A stretch of DNA of 64,000 nucleotides from Bdellovibrionales bacterium CG10_big_fil_rev_8_21_14_0_10_45_34 (GTDB lineage: Bacteria > Bdellovibrionota > Bdellovibrionia > Bdellovibrionales > 1-14-0-10-45-34), in the NCBI GenBank assembly GCA_002778785.1, contig PEZS01000011.1, forward strand, positions 478,882 through 542,881, read 5' to 3'. Made by a program: the position numbers and the translations under genes. The notes under the pieces are model-generated. The model saw only the letters and a list, made by a program, of their open reading frames with translations. It was not told the DNA's origin and searched no databases. Positions 13,175-59,690 of the stretch are shown here, piece after piece. Numbering within the stretch: the stretch's first letter is position 1; each line of letters opens with the position of its first letter.

Positions 13175-13394
13175 AAAAGCTCCCACAAGGTAGACCAAGG
13201 ATTTTTGAAACTTTCTTATAAACTAGTGCCCGGTCACAACAAAAAATGCTCTTCGCATAACCACCAGTTGACGCGCCATAACATTTTCAATTGAGTCAGC
13301 TAAAAATCGCTCTATTGCCAACAAATCCCCTTATATTCCCTTTGAAACACTCGTGAATTCAAATATAACCAGGTTCCGTAGAAGGGATACGACT

Positions 13395-35134: not shown

Positions 35135-35913
35135 AGTTTTTCACTCGTTTGACTTTTGACCAACTGGCCATGAACACTCGCTTCATGCCAACTTGCAAGT
35201 TTTTGAGCAGTGACATCGCTGAGACTGCTAACAACCTTATCGGCTCCAGCTTCTTTAAGATTTTGGCCGATTCGGTCTAGGCCCAACGTTAAGCCAACGT
35301 TGGCAGCCTTAGAAGCCTGCACACCGGATATGGCATCTTCAATAATAATAACGTCAGACGGACTACAAGAAAATTCTTTGATCAACTCCGAGAACATATC
35401 GGGATGTGGCTTGCCTCTTAAGTGCCTCTCCTTGATAGTGTTGCCATCGTAAATCTTTTTAAAGTATTTGGTTAGGCTGGCCCTTTCTAGCAAATATCGG
35501 CAGTTTTTGCTTGAAGACGCCACCGCAAGGTCAATACTTACGCTACTTAAGTGATTGATTAAATTTTCACAATCTTTGAAAACTTCGACACCCAACTCGT
35601 CGATTAGATCCAAGAAGATTCTGTCTTTCTTGTTACCTATACCGACCACTGATTCAACTGACTGATCTGTATCTTCCCCGTGTGGCAGCTCAATATCTCG
35701 TGAGCGCAAGAAATTCCCGATTCCGACAAGCCTGGGTTTTCCATCGACATGTTCGTGATAGTCGGAGTCAATTCGAAACTCTTTAAAGGTCTCACCCTTT
35801 CTCTGCGATCTCTTGGCAAGCATCTCATCAAAGACACTCTTCCACGCTCTTGCGTGTACGACCGCTGTGTTTGTTATTACACCGTCCATATCAAAAATAA
35901 CCAGTTTAAACAT
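35131..35913 (-). CDS. HAD-superfamily phosphatase/phosphomutase (beta-phosphoglucomutase-like)
   Basis: The protein is 260 residues from the ATG at 35913, which overlaps the upstream stop by one base (TAATG). FDMDGVITNT is motif I, with nucleophile Asp and general acid Asp. AVASSSKN, GKPHPD and VIIIEDAISGVQA are motifs II-IV. A helical cap (about 20-100, with HVDGKPRL) is like that of beta-phosphoglucomutase. It lies directly after the GT4-nucleotidyltransferase fusion, so it may dephosphorylate or isomerise a sugar phosphate for that enzyme. Confidence 0.85.
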   Translation of the reverse strand: MFKLVIFDMDGVITNTAVVHARAWKSVFDEMLAKRSQRKGETFKEFRIDSDYHEHVDGKPRLVGIGNFLRSRDIELPHGEDTDQSVESVVGIGNKKDRIFLDLIDELGVEVFKDCENLINHLSSVSIDLAVASSSKNCRYLLERASLTKYFKKIYDGNTIKERHLRGKPHPDMFSELIKEFSCSPSDVIIIEDAISGVQASKAANVGLTLGLDRIGQNLKEAGADKVVSSLSDVTAQKLASWHEASVHGQLVKSQTSEKL

Positions 35914-37523
35914 TAGGGCGTAACGCCTATTCGCATGCGTTCGATGGCTTTGCTCGAGGAGGTTGTCCATTCGCGCGTAAAATAGACGCAGCCGCCAGCT
36001 TTTTCTACGGCCTGCTTTTCAAGCTGAAAGTTAGGATTAACTTGTTGATCTGGCGCTTCGTACTCGTCACCTTTTGCAAAATAGTTTGGCTTTAACATCT
36101 CAATTGTTGGAACAGCAGATGGCCACTTATTGATTGCAACCCAACTTACTGCACCAAGCCCTGCAATCAACTCGGCACGCTGTTTCGCAGGAAAAACAGG
36201 ACGGTTTGGGCCTTTGTTAATGAACTCGTCTGGCGTAATGGTAGCAATGAGTACATCGGCTGCTTTTCTGGCTGATTCGAAGTGCCGCAAATGCCCGGCA
36301 TGCAAAACATCGAAGCAACCGTGACACTGCACCACAGTTCTACCCTCAGATTTCACCTGCTCTACAATGGCAGCAAGTCTATCGAGAGTGACCACCCTGT
36401 CTCGTGAGCTGATTGGCAAGGTAGTGGTTGACGACTTAGGTAGTACTTCGAAGTAGAATTTGGCCATCTTAGCCATTTCATTATTGTAGTCGTTCTTATC
36501 TTGAATAATTCTTCTCTCTCTTTCGCCTAGATTAGCGAGCTTCTCTTTTTCAGAAAACAGAGTCTCAATCTTAGTGACCAAATCCTCCGAATCGCTGGCT
36601 CGAAAAAGCTGATAAGGCTCACATATCCACTCTCGGTTTTCGCAAACATCTGAAACCACAACAGGCAGCTTCATAGCCATCGCCTCCGCGGTGCTTGCGG
36701 CTATTCCGGCGTCGGAGAGTGAGGCAGAAACGTATACGTCTGAAACTGTCAAAAACTCTTTGAGCTGTTTCATATTGTATCCGCCTAAAAAACTGACTCT
36801 TTCAGCAATATTCAACTCTTGCACAAGGGCTTTGAGATTTTCCGTCTCTGGTCCTCGCCCAGCAACAAGCAGTTTTACAGATGGATGCTTTTTTTCAAGA
36901 AGCGGAATCGATTTAACGATCGTTGCAATATCGTAAACATCATAATGGTTCCGAGTACTAAGGATAACAGGGAACGCATCATTTAACTCGTAAGACTTTT
37001 GGAGTTCTCTTCGTTGACCTAAATCTGGTGTGAAGTCCACCGTATCAATACCAAAATTAATCCTCTTTATTTTTTTACGGTCGGCTCCCAGATCTACCAT
37101 AGCTTCTATCATGTGATCGGCGTCGGTTGTAACCATCAATGACTTTTCAAGAACCCTTTGGACCAATCTTTTCTTAGCTATGTTGTTTCGGTTCGTAAGA
37201 ATATCGGAGCCCCAGGCTGTGCTTACAATAGGCGCCTTATCTTGAAGTAGTGCCAGCAAGCCGTAAAATCCAATGTAATGTACATGAATTAAATCTGGTT
37301 TCGTCTCTCTAACGACTGCGCGTATTTTTACAGCCGCCCTAGCGAAATTCCAGAGTTTACTTTTGGACCCTCCAAGCTCAATCACTTCTAAGCCCATTTC
37401 TTGTCTTAACTTAGAATCAATTGTGTCAAAGGTTGCCCAAGCAACCTCAAATCCTGCTTTCTTAAAATACTTAATCCACTTGATGCTATGAATAGAGGAT
37501 GAAGCTAAAAACAAAAGTTTCAC
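35913..37523 (-). CDS. Fusion of a GT4 glycosyltransferase and an HldE/RfaE-type nucleotidyltransferase
   Basis: The protein is 536 residues in one open frame. Residues 1 to about 365 are a GT4 enzyme: HVHYIGFYGLL, STRNHYDVYDIATIV, LLVAGRGPE and DAGIAASTAEAMAMKLPVVVSD. Residues about 396-525 are a nucleotidyltransferase with CHGCFDVLHAGHLRHFE, HxGH at 408-411, and TPDEFINKGPNRPVF. This resembles the adenylyl/cytidylyltransferase half of HldE and related enzymes. The GTG start has GGGAG 7 nt upstream. A fusion of sugar activation with sugar transfer is unusual; perhaps it activates and transfers a heptose- or polyol-phosphate. Confidence 0.87.
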   Translation of the reverse strand: MKLLFLASSSIHSIKWIKYFKKAGFEVAWATFDTIDSKLRQEMGLEVIELGGSKSKLWNFARAAVKIRAVVRETKPDLIHVHYIGFYGLLALLQDKAPIVSTAWGSDILTNRNNIAKKRLVQRVLEKSLMVTTDADHMIEAMVDLGADRKKIKRINFGIDTVDFTPDLGQRRELQKSYELNDAFPVILSTRNHYDVYDIATIVKSIPLLEKKHPSVKLLVAGRGPETENLKALVQELNIAERVSFLGGYNMKQLKEFLTVSDVYVSASLSDAGIAASTAEAMAMKLPVVVSDVCENREWICEPYQLFRASDSEDLVTKIETLFSEKEKLANLGERERRIIQDKNDYNNEMAKMAKFYFEVLPKSSTTTLPISSRDRVVTLDRLAAIVEQVKSEGRTVVQCHGCFDVLHAGHLRHFESARKAADVLIATITPDEFINKGPNRPVFPAKQRAELIAGLGAVSWVAINKWPSAVPTIEMLKPNYFAKGDEYEAPDQQVNPNFQLEKQAVEKAGGCVYFTREWTTSSSKAIERMRIGVTP

Positions 37524-37537
37524 AATGGTCTCCCAAA

Positions 37538-38278
37538 TTAAATCATTTCAACATTTCTATCAGTGACAACCTCGGTCGCACCCGGTGGCTTAGCCGGCAG
37601 AAGGGGTGCAGATCTACCAGAAACCGCAACAAGTTCCGCAGAGCCACCCAGTTTCTTCACCAACGACTGAACGCCTCGAAGTGCTAACGGTCGATTGACA
37701 AAGGATAATACAGTTAACCAAATTACCTTTAAATCTAAAAAAAGGTTCTGATGTTCTACATAAAGCAGGCCCAGACGGCTCTTCCAAGGTCTTACTAGTT
37801 GATTGTAAGCGATATTAGCATCTTCGTAGCCCTCAAGAATGTTGGCTAAATCGAAAAACACAACAGAGGATAGATCCGTAACGCCCGGTTTAATTGTAAG
37901 AAGTTTTTTTTCTTCGTGGGTGTATATCTTGATTTCTCTTTGAACGTTTGGGCGAGGACCAACTACCGAAAGATCGCCCATTAAAACATTTAAGAACTGT
38001 GTTAGCTCATCAACTTTAAATCGTCTTATTAAATGGCCTACACGAGTTATTCTGGGATCATCTTTTTTTGTCGAGTCCACTTGATTTGCGTGAGCGCCTA
38101 CAACCATCGTGCGGATTTTGATCATTTTAAAAGGTAGAGCGTTCTTACCAACTCTCTCTGACAAAAAAAAGGGGCTTCTTCGGTCATGCCTATACACGGC
38201 AAAAAGGGCTACTAATAACAATGGCGACGTTAAAATAAGTGCAAAAAATGAAAAGAAGATATCAAATAGCCGTTTCAT
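37538..38278 (-). CDS. Initiating phosphoglycosyl transferase (PglC/WcaJ-type bacterial sugar transferase)
   Basis: The protein is 246 residues. One N-terminal re-entrant hydrophobic segment (about 5-28) is followed by PFFLSERVGKNALPFKMIKIRTM, then RVGHLIRRFKVDELTQFLNV and MGDLSVVGPRP. These are the signature blocks of monotopic phosphoglycosyl transferases, including the catalytic Asp-Glu pair in KVDEL. It loads the first sugar-1-phosphate on undecaprenyl phosphate and so begins the repeat unit. The C-terminal tail beyond residue 205 is extra to the small PglC form. It overlaps the aldo/keto reductase by 17 bp. Confidence 0.92.
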   Translation of the reverse strand: MKRLFDIFFSFFALILTSPLLLVALFAVYRHDRRSPFFLSERVGKNALPFKMIKIRTMVVGAHANQVDSTKKDDPRITRVGHLIRRFKVDELTQFLNVLMGDLSVVGPRPNVQREIKIYTHEEKKLLTIKPGVTDLSSVVFFDLANILEGYEDANIAYNQLVRPWKSRLGLLYVEHQNLFLDLKVIWLTVLSFVNRPLALRGVQSLVKKLGGSAELVAVSGRSAPLLPAKPPGATEVVTDRNVEMI

Positions 38279-39242
38279 TTCTTACTCGCTCTTGGTTGGT
38301 ATTAAATATGGAATCAATCTCTGATAGTTCCGCCGCTTCCAAACTGAAACATTCGGCTCCCCAATTTGACTCTAGCTGCTTGAGCGATTTCACTCCGGCA
38401 ATACAAACGTCGATTGAAGATATCTGCTGGAGCCACCGAATTGCCACTGCAGAGACTGAAACGCCGTACTTGAGGGCATACTGTGTTAGCTTCGCAGCTC
38501 TTTCGACATTTCGCCTAAAATCCTCACCGATGAAGGCGGGCAGCCTGTGCCTGCGATCTGTTTGAGGGAACTGTATATCTTGGTTTTGAAACTTCCCCGA
38601 AAGCAGCCCTCGTTCTAAAACGCCATAAGCGAATGTTTTAATATTGTGGCCCCTTAAAAATCTCAGGTAAGAACCCTCAGCCTTTCGCTGTATCAGGCTG
38701 TATTGAAACTGCGCCGCTGAAATTGGATGGAGTTTTTGAATCTCTTCTAGATCTTTTAAGGCAAAATTCGAATAGCCGAACTCTCTTATTTTGCCGGTTT
38801 TTTGCAGGCCCACCAAGGTCTCAATCAAGAGCTCTTTTGGCACTTTCGGGTCAGGGTAGTGGACAAATAACAAAGGCACTGAATCTATTTGAAGCCTTCT
38901 AAGGCTGCCCTCAACGGAAGCTACGATGGCGCTAGGCTCAAGATTTACTTCCGTTACTGCACGCTCTTTGTCTTTTTGAAAGAAGTCGATTCCCACTTTT
39001 GTTCCAATGGTGACATCATGGCGCTTCGAGCCCAAATATTTTGAAAGGCGCTCTTCAGAAAGACCCAATCCATAGATGGGGGCCGTATCAAAGTACTTAA
39101 CGCCAATCTCGACTGCTCTGACGATGGCCTCACCAATGTCTTGAATATCAACATCCCCCCAATCTGTGCCGCCAAGTGGCTCACAGCCAAATCCCAGAGT
39201 AGGAAACTCCAGATTTATCGAAGAGGGTTGTTGCTGCTTCAT
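38262..39242 (-). CDS. Aldo/keto reductase
   Basis: The protein is 326 residues. It has the TIM-barrel AKR pattern: FDTAPIYGLGLSEERLSKYLG with catalytic Asp and Tyr, IGTKVG with the Lys, and LLFVHYPD with the His. RKAEGSYLRFLRGHNI and ERGLLSGKF are further family blocks. It probably reduces a keto- or aldo-sugar intermediate with NADPH. It lies between the methyltransferase and the phosphoglycosyl transferase in the same minus-strand operon. The substrate cannot be deduced. Confidence 0.87.
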   Translation of the reverse strand: MKQQQPSSINLEFPTLGFGCEPLGGTDWGDVDIQDIGEAIVRAVEIGVKYFDTAPIYGLGLSEERLSKYLGSKRHDVTIGTKVGIDFFQKDKERAVTEVNLEPSAIVASVEGSLRRLQIDSVPLLFVHYPDPKVPKELLIETLVGLQKTGKIREFGYSNFALKDLEEIQKLHPISAAQFQYSLIQRKAEGSYLRFLRGHNIKTFAYGVLERGLLSGKFQNQDIQFPQTDRRHRLPAFIGEDFRRNVERAAKLTQYALKYGVSVSAVAIRWLQQISSIDVCIAGVKSLKQLESNWGAECFSLEAAELSEIDSIFNTNQERVRNETAI

Positions 39243-39254
39243 AACTGTTATTCT

Positions 39255-40061
39255 TTAGTGAAGATTCTTTTTGGGCTCAGATAATATAAATACCATCTGC
39301 CAGGCCATAAGATTAAGAAGTGGAATTTTGAGCAAGATCTCGTCTATCTTCTCTGTTACTTTAAGAACTGGTTCAAAAACTTTTGTTCCGATAAACGGGA
39401 TTGCACCCAAGGAAGCCAAATAGAAAAATTTCACTTCGACTTTGTTGAAATAGTTTTTTGCTAAATTCAGCTCGCGCAGAGTGAGAATATGATCGGTCTC
39501 CCACTCGGTTCTAAGCTTTGGTGTCATTTTGCGATAGAGCTGAATGACAGGATTGTAGCCCAGAGCCTCCATGGCCATAATCGAGCCGGTTGGCTTAACA
39601 ATTCGGGCCAGCTCCTTCCAGGCCTTTCGAATGTCTAGATGGTGCAATACGCCGTTACAGACGACAACATCAAATGTGTTATCTTCAAAGTCGGTGTTTT
39701 CGGCATCGCCAACTACGAATTTTGCATTGGTAAAACCGTTTGATTCAAGGAGCTCTTTCGCAGTTTCGACCTCTTTGCTAGAAATATCGATTCCTGTGAC
39801 ATTGGCCCCCATCTGGGCAAGATTCAAACTTGTTTGACCCAAGCCGCAACAATAATCGAGCACTTCTTTACCTTTGCAGTTCTTTCTGAGCCACTCGTTT
39901 TGGTAATCGACACTCTTTTTGACAATGCTGTAGAAGCGCTTATTAGAATATTTGGCCAAATACTCCTCTTCAGACATATTTTTTCGATCGGCCTCTCTTT
40001 GGTTATGAAAATTCGCCTCTTCCTTTTTGCGCTTTATTTCTGTTTGATCTGAATTCAGCAT
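39255..40061 (-). CDS. Class I SAM-dependent methyltransferase (ubiE-like fold)
   Basis: The protein is 268 residues from the ATG at 40061, preferred because AGAGGAA lies just upstream; an earlier start at 40121 lacks this. Motifs are VLDYCCGLGQTSLNLA, VTGIDISSKEVETA and FDVVVCNGVLHHL. A charged N-terminal extension (EIKRKKEEANFHNQREADRK) precedes the domain. It opens the operon that runs to the Wzx gene and is divergent from the GT2 at 40273. It is probably a sugar or lipid methyltransferase. Confidence 0.82.
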   Translation of the reverse strand: MLNSDQTEIKRKKEEANFHNQREADRKNMSEEEYLAKYSNKRFYSIVKKSVDYQNEWLRKNCKGKEVLDYCCGLGQTSLNLAQMGANVTGIDISSKEVETAKELLESNGFTNAKFVVGDAENTDFEDNTFDVVVCNGVLHHLDIRKAWKELARIVKPTGSIMAMEALGYNPVIQLYRKMTPKLRTEWETDHILTLRELNLAKNYFNKVEVKFFYLASLGAIPFIGTKVFEPVLKVTEKIDEILLKIPLLNLMAWQMVFILSEPKKNLH

Positions 40062-40272
40062 TGATTCCTCTTTTGTAAATGTTGTGGCCCTCAGAGTCTT
40101 TTCGTTTTTAGCCCCTACCAATACCGCCTCGAGCCTCTAAATTTTTGTCGCCTAATCATCGCCTCGTTTAAATGGGCAAACTACCAATTCATTCGAATCT
40201 GCGTCAACGACTGCCGGGCCCCGCGCCTATTATCTTGCATATTTATTTGGCGGCTGTTACCTGAATTGATCA

Positions 40273-41171: not shown

Positions 41172-42287
41172 CTAAGAATTCGCTTCAGTTTCTCTGACAA
41201 TTCCTAGAATTGTTTTTGAAAATACTAAGACAATTCCAAATATGAGTCCCAAAACAACGGCACTCGGGAATATGACAAGCACCTGTGGTTTAACTGGATC
41301 TTTGTGTGTATACGGAGCTTGGTCAACGTGCAAAGCTATCAAATAGCTCGATTTAAAATCAAAGGCTTCAAGCATTTTTAGCTGGTTCATTAGCTTGCGT
41401 ACGGAATGGTCAAAGGACGCCGGATCCTTTCTGGCTTTAATTGCATTTATCTCAGCCCGCAATGCCTGACTGCCCCTAAAATAACTCAAATTCTCTGGCG
41501 AAGATAAGTCCGACATTTCGTCTGAATTTGCACTACTAAGCTGGCCATTTTCGACCAGTACAGTCTGCCGTGAACTAAAGGCCACTTGATCTGGCTGAAC
41601 GAAAACCGAACGCGAAAGGCTTAGCCTGTTGGCAATACTTTCAGACTCTGCAAGTCTCGTTGTAGCACTCTCCCACTCTCGCTTTATCAGTTCATTTTTT
41701 AACTGAATCTGTTTTTGTAATGTCGCTCTTTTGTTCTCAATAGATTTTTCCATAAACGAAACGGCCGAGCCCACGATCTGCTCATTGGCAAGGGTGGCTA
41801 ATTCAAATAGCCACTTCTCAGTCATTTTAGGTTCGTGAAAATCCATTGAAACGACATAGGCCTTGATATCTGGCCCCTCCCCTATGGGCGACATCGAAAT
41901 CTTTGAATCAAACCTTTGGTAGAAAACTTCAGTTACCTCCTCAGGTTCCACGTCAACAGGCAACTGACCGGTCAAATGGTGATACAGACCCTTTTTATCA
42001 AAGTACTCTCTTCTAAGAGTTTTTGAACCAAGGGCACCTACAGCCTGCTGAAAGAGATTTCCATTAGGACGGAATTCATTTGGTACGCCAAGCATAGACA
42101 ATGTATCTAGCGAAGGAGCTCCTATTTGAAGTTCAGTGCGGTAGCGCCACTTAGTTAAGGATACATAAGCAGTTGCTAAAATTAAGGCCGCGGCTACCGA
42201 TATCCAAATAAGTTTTTGCTCTCTCTTAAAGAGAATCAACAACTCTACAAGACCAATTTCCTCAGATAGTCCTTTTGAATTACCCAT
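41172..42287 (-). CDS. wzz: Chain-length determinant, Wzz family
   Basis: The protein is 371 residues. The N-terminal membrane segment (about 30-48, WISVAAALILATAYVSL) and a second near the C-terminus (about 338-360) flank a long periplasmic coiled-coil-rich region. KPQVLVIFPSAVVLGLIFGI carries the proline-rich motif before the second segment. There is no kinase domain, so it is Wzz-type rather than Wzc-type. It sets polymer length for Wzy. It is the last gene of the DegT-E1alpha-E1beta operon, 4 bp from the E1 beta stop. Confidence 0.88.
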   Translation of the reverse strand: MGNSKGLSEEIGLVELLILFKREQKLIWISVAAALILATAYVSLTKWRYRTELQIGAPSLDTLSMLGVPNEFRPNGNLFQQAVGALGSKTLRREYFDKKGLYHHLTGQLPVDVEPEEVTEVFYQRFDSKISMSPIGEGPDIKAYVVSMDFHEPKMTEKWLFELATLANEQIVGSAVSFMEKSIENKRATLQKQIQLKNELIKREWESATTRLAESESIANRLSLSRSVFVQPDQVAFSSRQTVLVENGQLSSANSDEMSDLSSPENLSYFRGSQALRAEINAIKARKDPASFDHSVRKLMNQLKMLEAFDFKSSYLIALHVDQAPYTHKDPVKPQVLVIFPSAVVLGLIFGIVLVFSKTILGIVRETEANS

Positions 42288-42291
42288 ATCC

Positions 42292-43308
42292 CTACCTAAC
42301 AGCCTCTGCGAATAAAGTTTTCTCTATTCTGTTTGAAAAGAATTTTTGCCGGATTTGGGCGACAATCTTATCAGTGGTCGGATAGTATTCGGACTCTAAA
42401 AATTTACTGGTCGGAGCTGGTGCACTCGGTAGCGTGACCCGCAAAGGAGCGCATTTGAAATGGTCAGGCCCAAGTTTTTCAAAAACGCTTGCTATTACCT
42501 CACCCGCTAGTCCGCAGTTCCCCCAACTTCCATCAATCGCGACGAGGCGACCTGTTTTCTTTACTGAACTCACAATTACATCTGTGTTGAGCGGATTAAT
42601 CACCCGTAGATCTATAACTTCAGCAGATATTCCTTGTTTGGCTAGCTCAACACTTGCAAGTTCGCATAGCTGTGCCGAGTAACTGGCACCAACGAGAGTT
42701 ACATCGCTTCCTGCTCTTCTCACCTTCGGGCCCACTTGCGAAAGATCCTGTTCGATCACAGGGCCGAGGTCATCTTTGAGGTCATACAGCCAACGATCAT
42801 CTATAAACACTACCGGATCTTCGCAAAGAACACTTGCGATCAAAAGGTCTCGAGCATCAGAGGCGGTAGCCGGCATCACAACTCGTAATCCTGGCACATG
42901 TGCGTACCACGAATGAAGCGCCTGTGAGTGTTGTGCCCCCTGCTCGCCCCCGCGATTGATGATCCCGCGAATGGTAACCGATGGCCTCGCCTGACCGCCT
43001 AGCATATGGGCCCATTTGGCGGCTTGATTAACAATGGGGTCGGTCGCAAGCACCATGAAGTCGATGCGAGGATGTACCACCACAGGTTTGTATCCGCAAA
43101 GTGAAGCGCCAATGGCGGCTCCCGTGCAAGCGTTTTCAGATACTGGCGAATCAAGCACACGATCCTTACCAAACTTTACGTCGAGATCGGTCATCGAGTT
43201 ACCAACATACCAAGGACTCCAGAGGCCCTGCCCAATAACAAAAACTTCTGGATATTTTTCTAAAAGATACTCAAAGCCCTTACAAATTGCCTCACCGTAG
43301 GAAGTCAT
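42292..43308 (-). CDS. Thiamine-diphosphate enzyme E1 beta-like subunit (dehydrogenase/transketolase C-terminal type)
   Basis: The protein is 338 residues. RVLDSPVSENACTGAAIGAS contains the Glu that activates the ThDP cofactor. GGEQGAQHSQALHSWYAHVPGLRVVMPA matches the beta subunit of pyruvate/2-oxoacid dehydrogenases, and a transketolase-C-like domain (SDVTLVGASY...VIDLRVINPLN) follows. It overlaps the alpha subunit by 4 bp (ATGA), so the two form one enzyme. No E2 or E3 gene lies nearby. It likely does a ThDP-dependent carbon-carbon reaction on a sugar or small acid. Confidence 0.88.
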   Translation of the reverse strand: MTSYGEAICKGFEYLLEKYPEVFVIGQGLWSPWYVGNSMTDLDVKFGKDRVLDSPVSENACTGAAIGASLCGYKPVVVHPRIDFMVLATDPIVNQAAKWAHMLGGQARPSVTIRGIINRGGEQGAQHSQALHSWYAHVPGLRVVMPATASDARDLLIASVLCEDPVVFIDDRWLYDLKDDLGPVIEQDLSQVGPKVRRAGSDVTLVGASYSAQLCELASVELAKQGISAEVIDLRVINPLNTDVIVSSVKKTGRLVAIDGSWGNCGLAGEVIASVFEKLGPDHFKCAPLRVTLPSAPAPTSKFLESEYYPTTDKIVAQIRQKFFSNRIEKTLFAEAVR

Positions 43309-44393
43309 ATTATCTGCTCCTGAGCTTTACTAGAATAAACAATATCTAAAAGCATACTCTTCGCCGGATATGTTCCTGTATTTGTCTTCGCCCAAGCTGT
43401 TTCCACCTGGTCTTTTACCTCGATTTGTAATTTATCAAATTCTGCGCTAGTAAATTTGCCGCCGGCTACCAGAGAGTCGACGAGTCTTCTAACGGGATCG
43501 CGTCTCTTCCAAACATCAAGATCATCTTTGCGCCTAACTCCGACGTCTCGATCTTCACTTGGGCCAACATGCCCACGCCATCTATAGGTTATAGCTTCAA
43601 GAAAGACCGGCCCGCCGCCACTGCGACAATGCTCAATAAGTCTTCTACTGGCATCCGCAACAGCTACGATGTCATTACCATCGACGACTTCGCATTTTAT
43701 ACCAGCAGCCGCAGCGAACCGCGCCACTGTGTCTGTGGGCTGCCTTAGATCAATGTGCAAATGACTAGAAAACAGGTTGTTCTCGCACATAAATACAACG
43801 GGCAGATTGTACACTTTAGCTAAATTCAAAGACTCTTGAACAACGCCCTCTTCTGTTGCGCCATCTCCGAAAAATGCAACACCCACATCGAGATTTGAAG
43901 AGTCTTTCTTTCTCTGGCCATCCATTTTTGCGGCAAGTGCCGCACCCACTGCCAACGGCACCGTGCCCGCAACAATAGGAACAGTCCCCTTGAGGCCCTG
44001 CTTCTCAGCATACAAGTGCATGGAGCCACCAAATCCTTTTGAACACCCTTCTAGCATGCCCCGCACTTCGTAAAATAGTTCATCTAAAGGCGCACCTGAC
44101 GCCAAATAATGCGAATGTGATCTATGGGCGCCAAACATCCTGTCGGAAGGTCGTATGGACTCACAAAATCCCACGGCTACAGCCTCTTGGCCTATAGCTA
44201 AATGGCACGGACAACTGATTGTTCCATCAACTACTTTGTCTGCTATTTTTTCTTCTGCGTATCGAATCACTAGCATTTTCTTAAGCCAGTGAGCTAATTG
44301 ATTCGCTTCGTATGATTTTAGATCAATTGGACCCGAATATTCACCTGCTTGTGCAAGCCGGCCTAATCTTGGCAAATTTTCTGAGTTCTGCAC
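43305..44393 (-). CDS. Thiamine-diphosphate enzyme E1 alpha-like subunit
   Basis: The protein is 362 residues. It has MLVIRYAEEKIADKV, HLAIGQEAVAVGF, FGAHRSHSHYLASGA and the ThDP/Mg motif GDGATEEGVVQESLNLAKVYNLP...ENN (GDG...N). These are the marks of the alpha subunit of 2-oxoacid dehydrogenases. The start is GTG with GAGGGTG just upstream. It lies between a DegT aminotransferase and the beta subunit. The absence of a lipoyl E2 partner argues against a normal dehydrogenase complex. Confidence 0.88.
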   Translation of the reverse strand: MQNSENLPRLGRLAQAGEYSGPIDLKSYEANQLAHWLKKMLVIRYAEEKIADKVVDGTISCPCHLAIGQEAVAVGFCESIRPSDRMFGAHRSHSHYLASGAPLDELFYEVRGMLEGCSKGFGGSMHLYAEKQGLKGTVPIVAGTVPLAVGAALAAKMDGQRKKDSSNLDVGVAFFGDGATEEGVVQESLNLAKVYNLPVVFMCENNLFSSHLHIDLRQPTDTVARFAAAAGIKCEVVDGNDIVAVADASRRLIEHCRSGGGPVFLEAITYRWRGHVGPSEDRDVGVRRKDDLDVWKRRDPVRRLVDSLVAGGKFTSAEFDKLQIEVKDQVETAWAKTNTGTYPAKSMLLDIVYSSKAQEQII

Positions 44394-44411
44394 ATCACCC
44401 TCGTAATATTT

Positions 44412-45527
44412 CTATCGTTTATAAAAATTTCTGATGGTCTCGCTAACAAAGTCGACGTCGTCGTTACTGAGATACGGATGCATCGGAATCATCATGCAAC
44501 GCTTAAACATTGCATCTGTATAAACTAAGTCAGACCCATCAAGGCCTAGCTTTTTCATATGGTGTACGGCCCGTCCGCCCCACTGAACAAGAGTGCCGAC
44601 TCCCGCCTCGTTCAAGTAGTTTCGAAGTCCATCCCTGTCATCTGCTTCAAGTTCGTAATTTTGAAAAACATCATAGTGTTCTTTTTCAGATTCAGGTGCC
44701 GGTGGAAGCTGCAATTGTTTTAGCTCGCCCAACTGCGACTGATATCTAGATGCAATTTCTCTTCGTCTAGAAACATCTTCTTCATAATACTTTAGTTTTA
44801 GGTTTAAGATCGCCGCCTGAATATTATCTAAGCGAGAGTTGTAACCCCACATGACGATCTCGTTGTCTTCACCGCGACCGTGATCTCTCAGAGCACGCAC
44901 CAATTTAGCTGTTTCATCATCGCTTGTCAGAACAGCCCCCGCGTCGCCAAAAGCACCCAATGTCTTGGCAGGATAAAAACTAATTGTTCCTGCTTTACCA
45001 AAAGTACCCGCGCACTTTCCGTTGAATTTTGAGCCTAAGGCTTGGGCAGCATCTTCAACTATTAATAGGCCATGCTTATCGGCCAAAGATTGAAGCGCTG
45101 CCATGTTGCAGGTTCTGCCATTAAGCTGAACAGGCAATATAGCTCTTGTTTTACTGGTAATTTTTTTCTCTACAGATTTTGCATCTAACATGTGATCTGG
45201 GCCACAATCGGCAAGTATTGGTTTTGCGCCAACAAAATGCACTGAAGAGGCTGTTGCAATAAAAGTATGCGAAGGCAGAATCACTTCATCCCCAGGTTGA
45301 ACACCGCTAGCTTTAAGTGCAATCACAATGGCGGCTGTGCCATCGGCGACACCGAACGCATATTTAGAGCTGGTGAACTTGGCGAGATTAGCCTCGAACT
45401 CTTCGAGGTCCTTCTGCATAATGAAGGCGCCCCTCTCTGCAACGTCAGTAATTGTTGCGAGGATTTCAGCTTTGCGACTTTGAAAAACTGCTGGATAATT
45501 GAAGAAAGGTACTTTTCTATAATTCAT
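44412..45527 (-). CDS. PLP-dependent sugar aminotransferase (DegT/DnrJ/EryC1/StrS family)
   Basis: The protein is 371 residues. VADGTAAIVIAL, LPSHTFIATASSVHFVGA, VEDAAQALGSKFNGK and the Schiff-base stretch SFYPAKTLGAFGDAGA (Lys) are all present. It is a third member of this family in the window, next to WbpE (5872) and LegC (22884), and is clearly distinct from both. It is the first gene of an operon with the E1-like pair and Wzz. It probably aminates a keto-sugar whose carbon skeleton the ThDP enzyme extends or supplies. Confidence 0.9.
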   Translation of the reverse strand: MNYRKVPFFNYPAVFQSRKAEILATITDVAERGAFIMQKDLEEFEANLAKFTSSKYAFGVADGTAAIVIALKASGVQPGDEVILPSHTFIATASSVHFVGAKPILADCGPDHMLDAKSVEKKITSKTRAILPVQLNGRTCNMAALQSLADKHGLLIVEDAAQALGSKFNGKCAGTFGKAGTISFYPAKTLGAFGDAGAVLTSDDETAKLVRALRDHGRGEDNEIVMWGYNSRLDNIQAAILNLKLKYYEEDVSRRREIASRYQSQLGELKQLQLPPAPESEKEHYDVFQNYELEADDRDGLRNYLNEAGVGTLVQWGGRAVHHMKKLGLDGSDLVYTDAMFKRCMMIPMHPYLSNDDVDFVSETIRNFYKR

Positions 45528-45632: not shown

Positions 45633-48629
45633 TCAGGCCCGGCGCGACCGCCTAGTGCTTGGGTGTCGCGAGCCGAAGAGTTTGCCCATTGCCATGATAG
45701 CGCTGACACGCGACAGGGGCGTATCCCTAAGTATGTTTGCAAATGCTTGAATAAATAAGCCCAACCCAAAATCCATACTGGAAAAGTAGAGAAGCCTAGT
45801 TCGCAGTGGCACACTGAGTCCGCTTTTTTGAGCTTCATCGACAATAAACTGAGTTCTCAGCCAGGAGGCGACAAACTTTTCTTTTAAAGGGGAGTCGGCT
45901 CTCTGCCGGGCGATTGGGAATAGACCCACAAATGGTCGAACGCCGACGACGTTGTGGTTGTGCTGGCGATAGGCATGCAGGGGTCGGTTGACGGAAAAGA
46001 TTCCCCGGCTGCAAGAGGCCACCAGGGCAAACCAATGATCATGGTACTCAATTTGATCGGGGATATCTTGGAATCTTTCTGCCAAATCAGCGGCTATTAA
46101 AGACGCTGCCCCGGTCACGACGTTTCGGGCCACCACATGAGAGGGCTTAACGCATTTGAGCCCTCTTCTCTCAACAGCCCAAACGGTTTCCTCTCTTTTT
46201 ATAAACTGGCCGCTATCCCATTCTAAAAAATGCATGTCAGCGTGAACAAGGCAATTTGGCCCTCGCTTTTCTAATTCACGAACTAGCTCTTCAACTTTGT
46301 GTTCATACCAAACGTCATCTTGATCAGAAAATGCGACAGCGTCGATTTCAAAATCGAGAACGTCTTTTAGTACCGCTTCGAAGTTTTTCTTGTGCCCTAA
46401 TCTTGCTGGGTTCTCTCTCCAGTGAAATCTGGAGTCTTGGAGGTATTCGTTAAAACGACTATCGTTCTCTATTTGAGCGAGCGGACTATCGAACCGAACG
46501 ACACAAAGCCAATTCTCGAACGATTGGCAGCGAATGGATGCAAGCTGCTCCAAAAAATACTCTGGATTGGGCGCGTGAGCCGCCATTGCGATGCCCACTT
46601 TGCCAACTTGAAAACTTTTATTAGCCTTTAGCTTCACATAAGTAAGCTCAGCATCTGGTGAGCCAACCAATTCTTTTGACCCAGACCATTCAACGCCTCC
46701 CAGATCACCAAGCAATGCTTTTTCTAGCTGATGGGAGTGGCTGGAGCTAAATAAGAGGCGTAACTCTGCCCCCGGTTGTACGATAGGAGAAATTTTATTT
46801 TTTAGTAGAGATCTAACCGCCTCTTCAAAGCCAAAATCATTGGCCGATAAAGCATTAAGATTGATTGCAACGGCATCGAACTTTTTAAATCCCTTCAAGT
46901 TTTCTATGTTAAGAAAGTTAGCGTCTGTTACTAACCAACCATTCTTTTTGAAATCGTCCGAAATTGCCCTGTCAATGTTCACAGATAGCAGGCGGCCCTT
47001 CGGAACAAACGGAATCTCAAACACTTTCTTCTTGATCCACGTTCTAACGATCGGGTTCATTCCGATAAGCCGCCCAAGAATTTCTTGCAGAATAGTGACG
47101 TCTTTTGAGTAACCTAACCTTGCGGCTAAAAAACCTCTCTCTAGCCACTGGCAAAAACGCACTCCCGGTAGCGACTCGTCTTCGGCAGAAAGCAGTGGCA
47201 CAACTAAAACTATGTTAAAGACGACAAATCCGAGTGCGAGAATAGCCCTTGCCCAAAGTGGTAATGGTATCCAAAAAAGAATCCCGCAGGCGACAAGCGG
47301 CAAGACCCAAGCAAGAATCTGCGAGAACTTGATTTTTGAAAATCTGCCAAGGCGCACAGACAAAGCAAATAGAGCAATCGCATCGATCGTTGTTCGAAGC
47401 ATCCACGCAAGCGCCGCTCCGCTAACTCCCATTTTGTGAACTAAAAACCAAATACCTGAAACATAAAAAGGTAGCTCAATACAATGTAGCTTTGCTGTTA
47501 GATCCGCACGCCCCAACGCCTGCACGTGAGCAAATGGAATATGGGCAAGACTGTTCATCAAGATTCCAATTGTCAGCCACCTTACTATTGGCGTGCTTTC
47601 TGTCGCGAAATCCGCGCCCAACCAACCATGCAGCATCTCTGGCGCAAAGAAGCCAATGAATACAATGGCCGGAAAGACAAGAACGAATATCCAGTGCACC
47701 GACTGCATAAAAATGGATTCATTGACTTGATTCTGATTGGAGCGCCCTCCTAGTTTTGAAAAAAGTGGAAACGCAGTTGTCATGACCGCTGAAGGGACGA
47801 TCCAAAGTCGTGTGAGAACTTCGTAGGGCGTAGTGTAATAGGCCACCATCGACATAGGTAGAATCACACCCAGTAAAAACCGATCGAAATACACCATTAG
47901 CGGACTGATAATATTGCTGATGGTCATCCATGTGCCCACCCTAACTAATGGTATCAAGAGACCCGGCTTCCAATGATCGCGTAGCTTAAGACCTCCGACT
48001 ACAAATCGCACTTGCCACATATGAAGAAGAGCAAAAATGGCTCGCCCAATAACGAGCGCCATAACCACTTTGTCTAAAGAATTCGTCCATGGAAGCACCA
48101 CCCATGGACTCAGGTAGTTGTAGAGCCCCACTCCCATTCTTAGTTTGTTGCTTTGATCGAATCGCTCGTACGCCTCGAGAACCCCTCTAAACCCTGCCGT
48201 CGTTGTTAAAAAAGGTACCGAGATTGCTAGCCACAAAAATGTGCGATACGCCTCGAGATGAAGCTCTTCGGGTAGGTGAAACAATTCTCTTACTAAAGGT
48301 GAGGCGACGGCGGCCACGATGACGCCGCCGACGATTCCCATAACAAACATGATCCACAAGGTGGTGATGACGAGACTTGGGATGTCTTTTTCTTCTTCTC
48401 CCCCAAGCTTTCTTGCAATCCCATGAGTGAGGGCGCGGCCTAAACCAAAATCAAAGAGACTAAAATATCCTGCGACCATCCACGCAACAGTGAGAGTTCC
48501 AAACCGGTCGTTACCAAGTTCCGAAATCAACTTCGGAATTGCAAAAAGGGCTACGATCATTGGAAGCCCCTGCCCCAGCAGGTTCCAGAAACTATTTTTG
48601 GCTAGCCCCTTTGAATTTTTTGCGCTCAT
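45633..48629 (-). CDS. Three-part fusion: Wzx-like flippase, degenerate methyltransferase-like domain, GT2 glycosyltransferase
   Basis: The protein is 998 residues in one uninterrupted frame. Residues 1 to about 490 are a Wzx/MATE-type flippase with about 14 hydrophobic segments (AKNSFWNLLGQGLPMIVALF...GNDRFGTLTVAW). Residues about 520-670 look like a class I methyltransferase (PKGRLLSV...GWLVTDANF...FDAVAINLNALSA...VQPGAELRLL), but the glycine-rich SAM loop is gone (SVNIDR). Residues 676 to about 960 are a GT2 domain with AFSDQDDVWYEHK (DxD at 769-772). The GT2 part is a close paralogue of the adjacent gene at 48755. The flippase probably carries its last transferase with it. Confidence 0.88.
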   Translation of the reverse strand: MSAKNSKGLAKNSFWNLLGQGLPMIVALFAIPKLISELGNDRFGTLTVAWMVAGYFSLFDFGLGRALTHGIARKLGGEEEKDIPSLVITTLWIMFVMGIVGGVIVAAVASPLVRELFHLPEELHLEAYRTFLWLAISVPFLTTTAGFRGVLEAYERFDQSNKLRMGVGLYNYLSPWVVLPWTNSLDKVVMALVIGRAIFALLHMWQVRFVVGGLKLRDHWKPGLLIPLVRVGTWMTISNIISPLMVYFDRFLLGVILPMSMVAYYTTPYEVLTRLWIVPSAVMTTAFPLFSKLGGRSNQNQVNESIFMQSVHWIFVLVFPAIVFIGFFAPEMLHGWLGADFATESTPIVRWLTIGILMNSLAHIPFAHVQALGRADLTAKLHCIELPFYVSGIWFLVHKMGVSGAALAWMLRTTIDAIALFALSVRLGRFSKIKFSQILAWVLPLVACGILFWIPLPLWARAILALGFVVFNIVLVVPLLSAEDESLPGVRFCQWLERGFLAARLGYSKDVTILQEILGRLIGMNPIVRTWIKKKVFEIPFVPKGRLLSVNIDRAISDDFKKNGWLVTDANFLNIENLKGFKKFDAVAINLNALSANDFGFEEAVRSLLKNKISPIVQPGAELRLLFSSSHSHQLEKALLGDLGGVEWSGSKELVGSPDAELTYVKLKANKSFQVGKVGIAMAAHAPNPEYFLEQLASIRCQSFENWLCVVRFDSPLAQIENDSRFNEYLQDSRFHWRENPARLGHKKNFEAVLKDVLDFEIDAVAFSDQDDVWYEHKVEELVRELEKRGPNCLVHADMHFLEWDSGQFIKREETVWAVERRGLKCVKPSHVVARNVVTGAASLIAADLAERFQDIPDQIEYHDHWFALVASCSRGIFSVNRPLHAYRQHNHNVVGVRPFVGLFPIARQRADSPLKEKFVASWLRTQFIVDEAQKSGLSVPLRTRLLYFSSMDFGLGLFIQAFANILRDTPLSRVSAIMAMGKLFGSRHPSTRRSRRA

Positions 48630-48754: not shown

Positions 48755-49714
48755 CTAAAGATTTTTGTGATGAAGCCCTTTTGAAGAATTCAGTTTACCC
48801 AAGGCTCTGGCAAATGAACTTCGTGCAAGAGGACGATCAACACAGAAGTACCGTAGGCCTTGAATTCCAAGACCCAGGCCAAGATCCTTGCGAAGATAGG
48901 TTAAATCAAACTTTTTGTCCCGCGCCAATCCACTCTTTACGACGGCCTCGATCCTAAGCTTCGTTTGTATCCAGGCTTTCTCTGCAGTTTGCCAAAACCC
49001 GTTTGCTTTGATGCGGGAGCTGGTATTAAAAAAACCAACAAAGGGGCTCGCTCCTACGACGTTCTCGTCGTGCTGCCTATAATAAAAAAGCGGCTCACGA
49101 ATAGGCCAAACTCCACCTTTTGTGCTTGCGACAACCGCGTACCACCAATCATGAAATTCAAAACCATCTGGTATTTCCAAATGGTTTCTAACAATCTCGG
49201 CATCCATTAAACTTGCTGCGCCGGCCGCGACGTTTCTTACCATAAGGGTGGTGAGGTTCGCATGGTTGACTCCTCTTTTTTCTAAAGCCCAGACAGAATC
49301 ATGAGTGGGCTTCCAGACGCCACTAATATTTTGCATCCAGTACATATCACAGTGAACTAACGAGCCAGGGCCACGTTTTTTGTACTCAGCAAAAGATCGT
49401 TCTAGTTTGTGCGGCATCCAGATATCGTCTTGATCACTGAAGGCGATAAGATCGGCAGACTCACCAAGACAAAGCTCAGCTGCCTTTTGAAAGTTTTTTT
49501 TATGGCCTAGCCGGTGGGGGTTTTGAACAATGCGAAATCTTTTGTCGCTGAATTTCTGTAGAATTTGCGAAACTTCTGACGGATCGGAGTCGAAGGTAAT
49601 GTAGCAAATCCAATTCTTGTAACTTTGCTCTTCAATGCTTTTTAACTGTACCTCGAAGTACTCAGGTTCGGGCTTGTAAGCAGCTAGGGCGATTCCGATA
49701 AGCGGTTGTAGCAT
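48755..49714 (-). CDS. Glycosyltransferase family 2, paralogue of the fused GT2 domain
   Basis: The protein is 319 residues with IGIALAAYKPEPEYFEVQL at the start, RLGHKKNFQ, AFSDQDDIWMPHK (DxD) and YRQHDENVVGASPFVG. Each block matches the C-terminal part of the 998-residue neighbour (RLGHKKNFE, AFSDQDDVWYEHK, YRQHNHNVVGVRPFVG), so they are duplicates of one ancestor. The ATG abuts the galE stop directly. It transfers a sugar, possibly galactose or another hexose given GalE, but specificity is unknown. Confidence 0.88.
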   Translation of the reverse strand: MLQPLIGIALAAYKPEPEYFEVQLKSIEEQSYKNWICYITFDSDPSEVSQILQKFSDKRFRIVQNPHRLGHKKNFQKAAELCLGESADLIAFSDQDDIWMPHKLERSFAEYKKRGPGSLVHCDMYWMQNISGVWKPTHDSVWALEKRGVNHANLTTLMVRNVAAGAASLMDAEIVRNHLEIPDGFEFHDWWYAVVASTKGGVWPIREPLFYYRQHDENVVGASPFVGFFNTSSRIKANGFWQTAEKAWIQTKLRIEAVVKSGLARDKKFDLTYLRKDLGLGLGIQGLRYFCVDRPLARSSFARALGKLNSSKGLHHKNL

Positions 49715-56168: not shown

Positions 56169-57056
56169 ATGAAAATCCTTATCACTGGAGCTTCTGGCTT
56201 TTTGGGTTCTCATGTGGCGAAGGCTTGCCTTGCTCAGGGCCACAAAATCTTTGGGCTAACACGCTCACCCAAAAGTGCAAATGCTCTCCGTGACCTTGAG
56301 GTGCCATCGGGGAAAAAGCCAAACACTTTAAACTGGATTGGCGGGGATTTTTTGGGCTTACCCGACGAAATTGACGGCGTCATACATTGCGCCACAAGCT
56401 ACGGCCGAAAAGGCGAAAACGAAAAGCAAATTTTTGAGGCAAATTTAGATTTTTCTGTGCGGATATTTGAACTCGCGCGTAAAAGGAAGGCTGAGTGGTT
56501 CATCAATATTCACACTTTGTTAGATCCAGAAACTAACCTCTATTCCGCCGCTAAACATGCCTTCAATAATATTCTCAAATCTCACACAAATGAGATTTCT
56601 TGCATTAGCCTAGCTTGCGAGAACTTCTATGGCCCGGGTGAGCCAAAGGATAGGTTTGTAACGTGGCTAATCGATGAATGCCTTATGGAAGGTGGACCAA
56701 TAAATCTTAGTTCGGGCGGTCAGTTTCGAGACTTCGTTTACATCGACGACGTCGTAGAGGCGATTCTTCGAGCCTTAGAATTAGCAAAGACCTCAGAGCT
56801 TAAACATCAAGAGTTCGCCATCTCCGGCGGAAAGCCTCTTTCTATTCGCGAAATCGCAGAGGCCATTTGTGAAATTGCAGCGCCACAAGCTGCCCATAGA
56901 CTCAAATTCGGTGCAAAACCCGATCGAAAGAGGGAGTTTGACGTCAACACAATTGACTTACCGACCCCAAAGAATCTAGGCTGGGAGCCTAAAACCGGGC
57001 TGATCGAAGGGCTTAAAAAGTCCGTAGAATTCGAAAGAAAGAGGTTAGGCTTATGA
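56169..57056 (+). CDS. SDR-family CDP-sugar reductase/synthase (CDP-paratose/abequose synthase-like)
   Basis: The protein is 295 residues. It has ITGASGFLGSH (NADP site), HCATSYGR and the catalytic Tyr-x3-Lys in NLYSAAK, preceded by Thr in INIHTL. The C-terminal half has SSGGQFRDFVYIDDVVEAIL. Length and pattern fit RfbS/RfbJ, which reduce CDP-4-keto-3,6-dideoxyglucose to CDP-paratose or CDP-abequose. The RfbE-type gene follows with a 4-bp overlap, so the paratose-forming activity is more likely. The stereochemistry is inferred. Confidence 0.78.
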   Translation: MKILITGASGFLGSHVAKACLAQGHKIFGLTRSPKSANALRDLEVPSGKKPNTLNWIGGDFLGLPDEIDGVIHCATSYGRKGENEKQIFEANLDFSVRIFELARKRKAEWFINIHTLLDPETNLYSAAKHAFNNILKSHTNEISCISLACENFYGPGEPKDRFVTWLIDECLMEGGPINLSSGGQFRDFVYIDDVVEAILRALELAKTSELKHQEFAISGGKPLSIREIAEAICEIAAPQAAHRLKFGAKPDRKREFDVNTIDLPTPKNLGWEPKTGLIEGLKKSVEFERKRLGL

Positions 57057-58087
57057 GGCTCTTGATAACCGGAGGATGCGGCTTTCTAGGCTCGAATCTT
57101 GCGGCTCATGCTCTAGATAAAGGGTATGAGCTTGCAATTTTTGACAACCTTTCAAGAGCTGGTGCAACTCTCAATCTGGAGTGGCTCAAGTCAAAAGGTA
57201 AATTTCATTTTTTTGCATCCGACATTCGAAGTTTCAATGATGTTGAACGAGCCGTTAAAGAGTTTTCACCAGATGCAGTTTTTCATTTAGCGGGTCAAGT
57301 TGCCATGACAACCTCTATTGAAAACCCTAGAAAAGATTTTGAAATCAATGCCTTGGGCTCTTTTAACGTCCTAGAGGCTGTTCGAACTCACTCTCCGAAG
57401 GCCCAGATTGCCTATTCTTCTACTAACAAAGTTTACGGAGATCTCGGCGATATAGCATTTGTCGAGGAGCCAACAAGGTACCGCGCAAAAGACTTTCCGG
57501 GCGGTTTTGACGAGTCACTTCGACTTCACTTTGAATCGCCGTATGGCTGCTCAAAAGGTTCCGCCGATCAGTACATGCTAGATTATTCGAAAATCTTTGG
57601 CCTGAATACCGTCGTCTTTAGACACTCATCTATTTTTGGTGGTCGTCAGTTTTCGACATTTGATCAAGGCTGGGTGGGATGGTTTGTGCAAAAGGCGCTT
57701 GAAGCAAAGTCGGCAAAAAAACAAGATGGCTTCACGATCTCAGGAGATGGCAAACAAGTGCGCGATGTTCTATTTGCCTCAGATTTGGTAAACTTGTACT
57801 TCTCTGTGCTCTCGCAACCCACTCCCTTGAAAGGAGAGGTTTTTAATATCGGCGGCGGTATAGAAAACAGTCTATCGCTACTCGAGTTATTCAGCTATCT
57901 TGAAGAATCTCTTAATGTGAAATTGCAATACACAAAGCTCCCTTGGCGAGCGAGCGATCAGAGGGTATTTGTAGCAAACATAAGTAAGGCAAAAGAGATA
58001 CTGGGTTGGTCACCACAAGTGACTGCCCACCAAGGCCTTGATGCCATGATCGAGTGGCAGAAATCGCAGTTAGATCTTCAAAAGTAA
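57053..58087 (+). CDS. rfbE: CDP-paratose 2-epimerase (CDP-tyvelose-forming), RfbE-like
   Basis: The protein is 344 residues. ITGGCGFLGSNLAAHALDKG, FDNLSRAGATLNLEWL, FHLAGQVAMTTSIENPRKDFE, SSTNKVYGDL and FRHSSIFGGRQFSTFDQGWVGWF match RfbE strongly. YGCSKGSADQ holds the catalytic Tyr and Lys. RfbE inverts C2 of CDP-paratose to give CDP-tyvelose. It overlaps the upstream reductase by 4 bp and precedes a GT2. Some RfbE relatives act on other sugars, so the product is probable but not certain. Confidence 0.88.
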   Translation: MRLLITGGCGFLGSNLAAHALDKGYELAIFDNLSRAGATLNLEWLKSKGKFHFFASDIRSFNDVERAVKEFSPDAVFHLAGQVAMTTSIENPRKDFEINALGSFNVLEAVRTHSPKAQIAYSSTNKVYGDLGDIAFVEEPTRYRAKDFPGGFDESLRLHFESPYGCSKGSADQYMLDYSKIFGLNTVVFRHSSIFGGRQFSTFDQGWVGWFVQKALEAKSAKKQDGFTISGDGKQVRDVLFASDLVNLYFSVLSQPTPLKGEVFNIGGGIENSLSLLELFSYLEESLNVKLQYTKLPWRASDQRVFVANISKAKEILGWSPQVTAHQGLDAMIEWQKSQLDLQK

Positions 58088-58913: not shown

Positions 58914-59687
58914 ATGAAAGCTGTTATTCTTGCCGGCGGAAAGGGCACTCGCATTAGCGAGGAGAGCCACCTTAAGCCAAAGCCCATGATCGAGATCGGC
59001 GGACGACCTATTTTGTGGCACATAATGAAAATTTATTCGCATTACGGGATCAACGATTTCGTCATCTGCTGTGGCTACAAAGGGTATGTCATTAAAGAAT
59101 ACTTCGCGAATTACTTTTTGCACAGCTCTGACGTTACGTTCGATATGACAAGCAACTCTATGCAGGTTCATCAAAATAGTGCCGAGCCCTGGCGAGTAAC
59201 TGTCGTTGATACTGGCGAAGAAACGCTAACTGGGGGACGCCTCAAACGGGTAAAACAATATCTTGGTGCCGAAGATTTTTGTTTCACTTACGGCGATGGC
59301 GTTGGCAATGTGGACATTGCCGAGCTCATCTCTTTTCACAAAAAAAACGGGCGACTTGCTACTTTAACTGCTACCCAGCCACCTGGAAGATTTGGAAGTT
59401 TGCATTTTGATGGCCCACTCATTACATCGTTTAAAGAGAAACCTCGTGGAGACGGCGGCTACATTAACGGTGGCTTCTTTATACTAAACCCAAAAGTGAT
59501 CGACTACATTAGCGACGACACAACAATTTGGGAGCGTGAACCGCTAGAGAACCTCGCTAAAAATAAAGAATTAGTTGCCTACCATCACAATGGTTTTTGG
59601 CTACCCATGGATACTTTAAGAGACAAACAGACTCTTGAAGAAATGTGGGATTCTGGTTCTGCCCCCTGGAAAGTATGGTCCAATTAA
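58914..59687 (+). CDS. rfbF: Glucose-1-phosphate cytidylyltransferase
   Basis: The protein is 257 residues, the typical RfbF length. It has [48 protein letters not shown] and [17 protein letters not shown]. It makes CDP-glucose from glucose-1-phosphate and CTP, the first step of the 3,6-dideoxyhexose pathway. GGAGG lies 5 nt before the ATG. RfbG and RfbH follow without a gap. Confidence 0.95.
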
Positions 59688-59690
59688 TTT

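Follow-up and report, generated by a model that had tools for sequence, protein, structure and literature searches.

In the literature consulted, the sugars with a two-carbon branch that occur in Gram-negative polysaccharides are ascribed to the single-chain enzyme YerE (PMC12247030, PMC4753412). In actinobacteria, E1-like pairs known as aKADH2 place two-carbon branches on C3 or C4 of a sugar (PMC12247030), and the acetyl branch comes from pyruvate and goes on keto-sugars (PMC12247030, PMC4753412). The ketone of the branch has several fates, being reduced (paulomycin F, trioxacarcin and avilamycin E), oxidised, methylated or transaminated (kibdelomycin); in the aKADH2 review, kibdelomycin is the sole transaminated case named and the word polysaccharide does not occur (PMC12247030). 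In vitro assays of the KbDH-a/b pair have used pyruvate together with cyclic ketones (PMC12247030), the aldo-keto reductase Pau7 has been shown to reduce the acetyl branch in the paulomycin pathway (PMC4753412), and Pau11/12 has been compared with AviB1/B2 (PMC4425429).

Here we describe an E1-like pair encoded beside a DegT-type aminotransferase in a sugar operon; we found no paper in the open-licence literature that describes this trio or its chemistry. Our main reading, to which we assign a probability of roughly 60%, is that the pair, together with the adjoining aminotransferase or, in some relatives, an aldo-keto reductase, makes a C-acetyl-derived branched nucleotide sugar that primes a polysaccharide.

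Genetic organization of the locus

The window, that is, the whole 64-kb stretch of DNA analysed, carries on its minus strand all three genes named in the first-pass annotation, encoding the DegT-type aminotransferase and the alpha and beta subunits of an E1-type thiamine diphosphate (ThDP) enzyme (Table 1). Below, the two subunits are called E1ab, the aminotransferase and its subfamily DegT, and the aldo-keto reductase and its relatives AKR. The DegT, E1-alpha, E1-beta and Wzz genes follow one another at intervals of 18, -4 (an overlap) and 4 bp. A promoter and terminator scan gave sites no more numerous than in shuffled sequence.

Table 1. Positions of the genes of the window that are discussed in the text
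Feature	Position	Strand	Remarks
DegT, Gfo/Idh dehydrogenase and left-handed-helix acetyltransferase genes, in a row	5872..8619	-	apart from the DegT of the operon
UDP-GlcNAc 4,6-dehydratase-like membrane protein (CapD/PglF type)	13353..15308	+	below cut-off; candidate source of a 4-keto acceptor
GT4 glycosyltransferase fused to RfaE domain-II-like nucleotidyltransferase	35913..37523	-	
Small sugar-1-phosphate transferase	37538..38278	-	PF02397, PglC-size
Aldo-keto reductase (AKR)	38262..39242	-	relatives stand in for DegT in six loci
SAM methyltransferase	39255..40121	-	recurs with reductase and transferase in L013, L017, L020 and L145
Wzz chain-length determinant	41172..42287	-	same operon; Pfam Wzz 28.3 bits (cut-off 25.5)
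E1-beta-type ThDP subunit	42292..43308	-	338 aa; Pfam Transket_pyr 84.2 bits, Transketolase_C 86.9 bits
E1-alpha-type ThDP subunit	43305..44393	-	362 aa, GTG start; Pfam E1_dh 197.7 bits
DegT-type PLP aminotransferase (DegT)	44412..45527	-	371 aa; Pfam DegT_DnrJ_EryC1 324.6 bits
Protein with Wzx-type flippase N-terminal half	45633..48629	-	998 aa
Glycosyltransferase	48755..49714		
Two SDR genes	56169..58087		
Glucose-1-phosphate cytidylyltransferase, CDP-glucose 4,6-dehydratase and RfbH 3-dehydrase genes (CDP-sugar set)	58914..62209	+	all above NCBIfam cut-offs

Beyond the operon, the C-terminal part of the 998-aa protein resembles, by eye, the glycosyltransferase encoded next to it in Table 1, and on this inspection the protein looks like a flippase-transferase fusion. 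The CDP-sugar set, whose three members all exceed their cut-offs and are preceded by two SDR genes, probably makes a CDP-3,6-dideoxyhexose.

Family assignment and active site of E1ab

E1ab consists of an E1-type alpha and an E1-type beta subunit with the ThDP motif and the catalytic Glu and His. Its best named matches are the pyruvate dehydrogenase (PDH) E1 alpha and beta subunits, but both proteins fall below every NCBIfam PDH cut-off (alpha, at best 268.5 versus 393.85 bits; beta, 234.9 versus 321). The AlphaFold model of E1-beta (pLDDT 86.3) matches PDH E1-beta with a TM score of 0.86, and the split transketolase 6yaj is a distant structural match. This match, and membership of the same superfamily, would accord with a split transketolase-like enzyme that performs ketol transfer, so that the sugar chain is lengthened and not branched. 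The Pfam scores of E1-alpha argue against it (E1_dh 197.7 versus Transketolase_N 24.7 bits), and identity as a split transketolase was set aside, Transketolase_N not being the top-scoring domain of the alpha subunit.

When aligned to human PDH E1, the pair keeps the ThDP motif GDGA...ENN in E1-alpha and the catalytic residues H64, R91 and H275 of alpha and E58 and H127 of beta; the loss of ThDP-binding residues that the first-pass annotation had singled out as telling against its proposal is not seen, nor is any loss of catalytic residues. The residues concerned have catalytic roles in human PDH E1, where E28 of the beta subunit serves as the proton wire. All 30 core rows differ from human PDH at the same alpha positions (G to P139, S to V276) and beta positions (E28 to Q27, E29 to G28, F80 to H79 and T82 to R81), and the position of PDH beta Glu28 is Q in 30/30 core rows and E in 17/17 controls.

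The E1-beta subfamily is marked by the motifs GQGLWSPWYVG and HPRxDF, and the form H-x-R-x-D-F is carried by all core loci and absent from the E2-linked E1s examined. All 49 sugar-associated rows (30 from the core group, 3 intermediate and 14 wider rows and 2 Streptomyces plasmid pairs) have beta residues H79 and R81, versus 0 of 17 controls, eight of which were chosen after their lack of the motif had been seen, so that nine (eight E2-linked loci and human) are independent. Neither of two further E2-linked plasmid pairs carries H79/R81 (0/2).

Search for E2 and E3 partners

A tblastn search with an E2 query found no E2 in the window, in the core loci (0/31) or in the wider loci (0/19); the same search gave a match in 8/8 control loci, two of them only short lipoyl-domain matches. 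No E2 or E3 gene lies within the window, and sugar-modifying genes surround the pair. The notion of an orphan E1 pair in a sugar context was borne out by the Pfam domains, the ThDP residues and the sugar-gene neighbours, as was its lack of E2 and E3 in the cluster, and the partner elsewhere that would have spoken against it was sought in these loci and not found.

E1ab could instead belong, as an orphan E1, to an ordinary 2-oxo acid dehydrogenase complex and draw on a distant E2 and E3 to supply acyl groups, a reading in keeping with its PDH-like best matches and with the presence of two E2 genes in the host genome. The first of these lies in an AceE-E2-E3 operon on contig C16; the second adjoins lipoyl synthase and E3 genes on C11 (about 260 kb), AceE and lipoyl synthase having been identified by eye from sequence and length. 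Other possible E1 partners exist for both E2 genes, a further, ordinary E1 alpha/beta pair encoded on C10 being available for the second, and it is unlikely that the second E2 serves the pair of the window. With scores under every PDH cut-off, no E2 in any relative's locus and both PDH beta E28 and E29 replaced, we regard a borrowed E2 as very improbable; identity as an ordinary PDH E1 was set aside on the absence of E2 from the loci and the changed active-site residues.

Conserved neighbours of E1ab

Neighbours were counted in 30 core loci, the window being left out and near-copies (L014/L096, L090/L092 and L087/L089) included. The neighbourhood search for the trio of DegT and E1ab that the first-pass annotation had proposed placed DegT within 130 bp of E1ab in 23/30 loci, and AKR was found within 212 bp in another 6/30 (L013, L020, L085, L094, L095 and L145). 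Every locus with complete flanks (29/29) therefore has DegT (23) or AKR (6) directly adjoining E1ab, at 0–212 bp; in the remaining core locus, L015, the contig ends 10 bp upstream. In 29/30 loci a PglC-size sugar-1-phosphate transferase is encoded no more than 1.4 kb away, the exception, L016, being cut by a contig end. It is this PF02397 enzyme that is the constant partner, and Wzz, which had been named as a member of the set, was dropped as it is not conserved next to E1ab.

The GT4/RfaE-II-like fusion protein was also considered as a partner and rejected, not being constant in the core group; relatives of its RfaE-II-like domain (27–46%) recur near wider E1ab pairs.

Only 1 of the 23 DegT loci (L017) has AKR within 4 kb of E1ab. 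Tabulated over 29 rows, taking in the window and leaving out L015 and L145, DegT and AKR occur together in 2, DegT alone in 22, AKR alone in 5 and neither in 0 (Fisher p 1.8e-4, for rows that are related by descent). The tree offers three independent pairs on supported branches (four in all), which are always opposite or tied and too few for significance. Loci without DegT are scattered over the tree, with four changes of label, and the gene order of L085 equals that of L090/L092 except that AKR occupies the place of DegT. The AKR relatives are only 29–41% alike, and the catalytic Asp, Tyr, Lys and His positions are invariant among the four aligned. The window and L017 hold both enzymes, and the replacement is not clean there. 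A transaminase and a ketoreductase exchanged beside one and the same enzyme fit a ketone as the product of that enzyme.

Ring or branch as the site of amination

The DegT of the window keeps its PLP lysine (YPAKTLG), and identity as an RfbH/ColD-type 3-dehydrase was rejected since Lys, not His, is present. The lysine is retained in all aligned DegT proteins that cover the site except that of L017. In that locus, which also holds an aldo-keto reductase, the homologue (L017:8840-9952) has Asn in its place.

In sequence and fold, DegT is nearest to DesV, QdtB and WbpE, with best Z scores of 50.8 to 7b0d and 50.0 to DesV. These three enzymes act on ring C3 ketones. Given this likeness to ring 3-aminotransferases, DegT might aminate the ring rather than the branch: E1ab would still be a two-carbon carboligase acting on a keto-sugar, DegT would act on a ketone in the ring, whether of that sugar or of a different one, giving an ordinary 3- or 4-amino sugar, and AKR would be an alternative ring-ketone reductase. 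CapD/PglF-type 4,6-dehydratases within 4 kb of E1ab in 7/30 core loci also favour ring amination. Against it, DegT has conserved marks of its own (QLNGR and QWGG..VH) and is tied to E1ab, and the window encodes, apart from the operon, a WbpE-like set that includes another DegT protein (Table 1) and resembles the WbpE/B/D enzymes of 3-amino sugar synthesis. We consider amination of the ring unlikely, though it is the rival that we would take most seriously, and amination of the branch is the reading followed below.

Wider E1ab pairs

Beyond the core group, wider pairs 31–50% identical to that of the window likewise have the H-x-R-x-D-F motif and belong to sugar clusters of other kinds, where their neighbours are GHMP kinases, SIS isomerases, nucleotidyltransferases and SDR enzymes. 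Six loci (L083, L102, L104, L105, L106 and L149) have a DegT-fold neighbour with His for the PLP lysine, which we take to be the mark of RfbH/ColD 3-dehydrases; the remaining loci have a Lys-type DegT in some cases and a methyltransferase or SDR in others. The 3-dehydrase neighbours fit the logic of yersiniose synthesis, in which the 3-deoxy-4-keto product is the acceptor of YerE. The GHMP kinases and SIS isomerases beside some wider relatives are reminiscent of heptose pathways and favour ketol transfer by a transketolase-like pair, but the 3-dehydrase neighbours fit branching; chain lengthening seems to us highly doubtful, and a branching carboligase is preferred.

Two plasmid loci are worth recording. 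A Solidesulfovibrio plasmid (L083:7876-15158) carries E1ab, a His-type 3-dehydrase, a kinase, a radical SAM protein and a nucleotidyltransferase, a cluster that possibly makes a branched heptose. In a Streptomyces plasmid (L082:7977-10023), E1ab with the H-x-R-x-D-F motif adjoins a condensation-domain protein, and this pair is likely a carboligase in a natural-product cluster.

Distribution and phylogeny

Around ten phyla hold relatives at 45–69% identity. A contig scan gave 28 loci, 19 of which (L009–L026 and the partial L034) hold E1-alpha at 45–57% identity; they come from Planctomycetota, Gemmatimonadota, Bdellovibrionota, Verrucomicrobiota, Dadabacteria, Pseudomonadota, Spirochaetota, Bacteroidota, Nitrospinota, Marinimicrobia and Omnitrophota, the Omnitrophota locus (L026) belonging to the wider group. 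Whole-genome searches revealed a rare family with a patchy distribution: core members were found in 3/290 Bdellovibrionota genomes (13/290 at a looser cut-off) and, counting in each phylum the known carrier used as centre, in 14/298 Gemmatimonadota, 2/77 Nitrospinota, 1/337 Verrucomicrobiota, 1/345 Bacteroidota and 1/241 Planctomycetota. Such patchiness across phyla suggests horizontal transfer. In the tree, the core group and two intermediates are united with support of 100/99, and the PDH controls form a separate clade (100/100). A search of Actinomycetota with a three-row profile returned mostly ordinary PDH, the motif being present in only 3/30 returned loci (L115, L116 and L117).

Proposed pathway

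The identity of the genes, their operon, the conserved residues and partners, the absence of E2/E3 and the replacement of DegT by a reductase are directly established; from these we infer the pyruvate donor, the acceptor sugar, the position of the branch, the order of steps and the product. E1ab would act as a stand-alone ThDP carboligase, outside any dehydrogenase complex, that decarboxylates pyruvate and adds the two carbons that remain to the ketone in the ring of a keto-sugar nucleotide, and its product would be a C-acetyl branched sugar, a tertiary alpha-hydroxy ketone. The adjoining DegT would then transaminate the branch ketone to a 1-aminoethyl branch or, in relatives without DegT, the adjoining AKR would reduce it to a 1-hydroxyethyl branch. 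Finally, the sugar-1-phosphate transferase may attach this product to undecaprenyl phosphate and so start the polysaccharide unit. The first-pass annotation had proposed a carboligation or acyl transfer leading to a branched or chain-extended amino sugar; the genomic data support this in outline, and within it the predicted two-carbon acetyl branch derived from pyruvate has more in its favour than either an extended chain or acyl transfer.

Two sources of the acceptor can be put forward in the window: the CapD/PglF-type protein and, as a second candidate, the CDP-sugar set, by way of CDP-3,6-dideoxy-4-keto-glucose, the compound that YerE branches in the yersiniose pathway. Both lie more than 13 kb from E1ab, and no acceptor-making enzyme is constant among the 30 core loci.

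Significance and comparison with known systems

We put forward, tentatively and with somewhat less than even confidence, the broader proposal that widespread and unrecognised C-(1-aminoethyl)-branched or, with one enzyme swapped, C-(1-hydroxyethyl)-branched sugars serve as primers of surface polysaccharides across some ten bacterial phyla, and that the two-subunit ThDP carboligase which makes them derives from the PDH family, its recruitment being independent of YerE. If true, there would be a second, E1-derived route to two-carbon branched sugars beside YerE, branching would be linked to amination of the branch, and such a sugar would be the first of the repeat unit. The H-x-R-x-D-F motif together with an absent E2 would be a simple flag for mis-annotated 'pyruvate dehydrogenase' genes, and the enzymes could find use in making tertiary-alcohol amino sugars.

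Like the aKADH2 enzymes (AviB1/AviB2, Pau11/Pau12 and KbDH-a/b), the family is a PDH-E1-like alpha/beta pair of sugar pathways (PMC12247030, PMC4753412, PMC4425429), and in those systems the branch ketone meets an aldo-keto reductase (paulomycin) or a transaminase (kibdelomycin), in separate pathways. The likeness drawn here is one of subunit make-up and pathway context, and the present family differs in that it belongs to polysaccharide loci, mostly from Gram-negative phyla, where a sugar-1-phosphate transferase and a single DegT subfamily are its fixed neighbours. With YerE/YerF of the yersiniose A pathway (Yersinia O-antigen) it would share the use of pyruvate to put a two-carbon branch on a keto-sugar for a surface polysaccharide, and some wider relatives share the 3-dehydrase, but YerE, a flavoprotein from the decarboxylase superfamily, is a single protein and not an E1ab pair (PMC12247030, PMC4753412). 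The YerE/YerF pathway also proceeds without transamination. PglE-PglD-PglC cassettes resemble the locus in that an aminotransferase adjoins a small sugar-1-phosphate transferase, sometimes with a 4,6-dehydratase. They differ in that the position of their N-acetyltransferase is taken here by E1ab.
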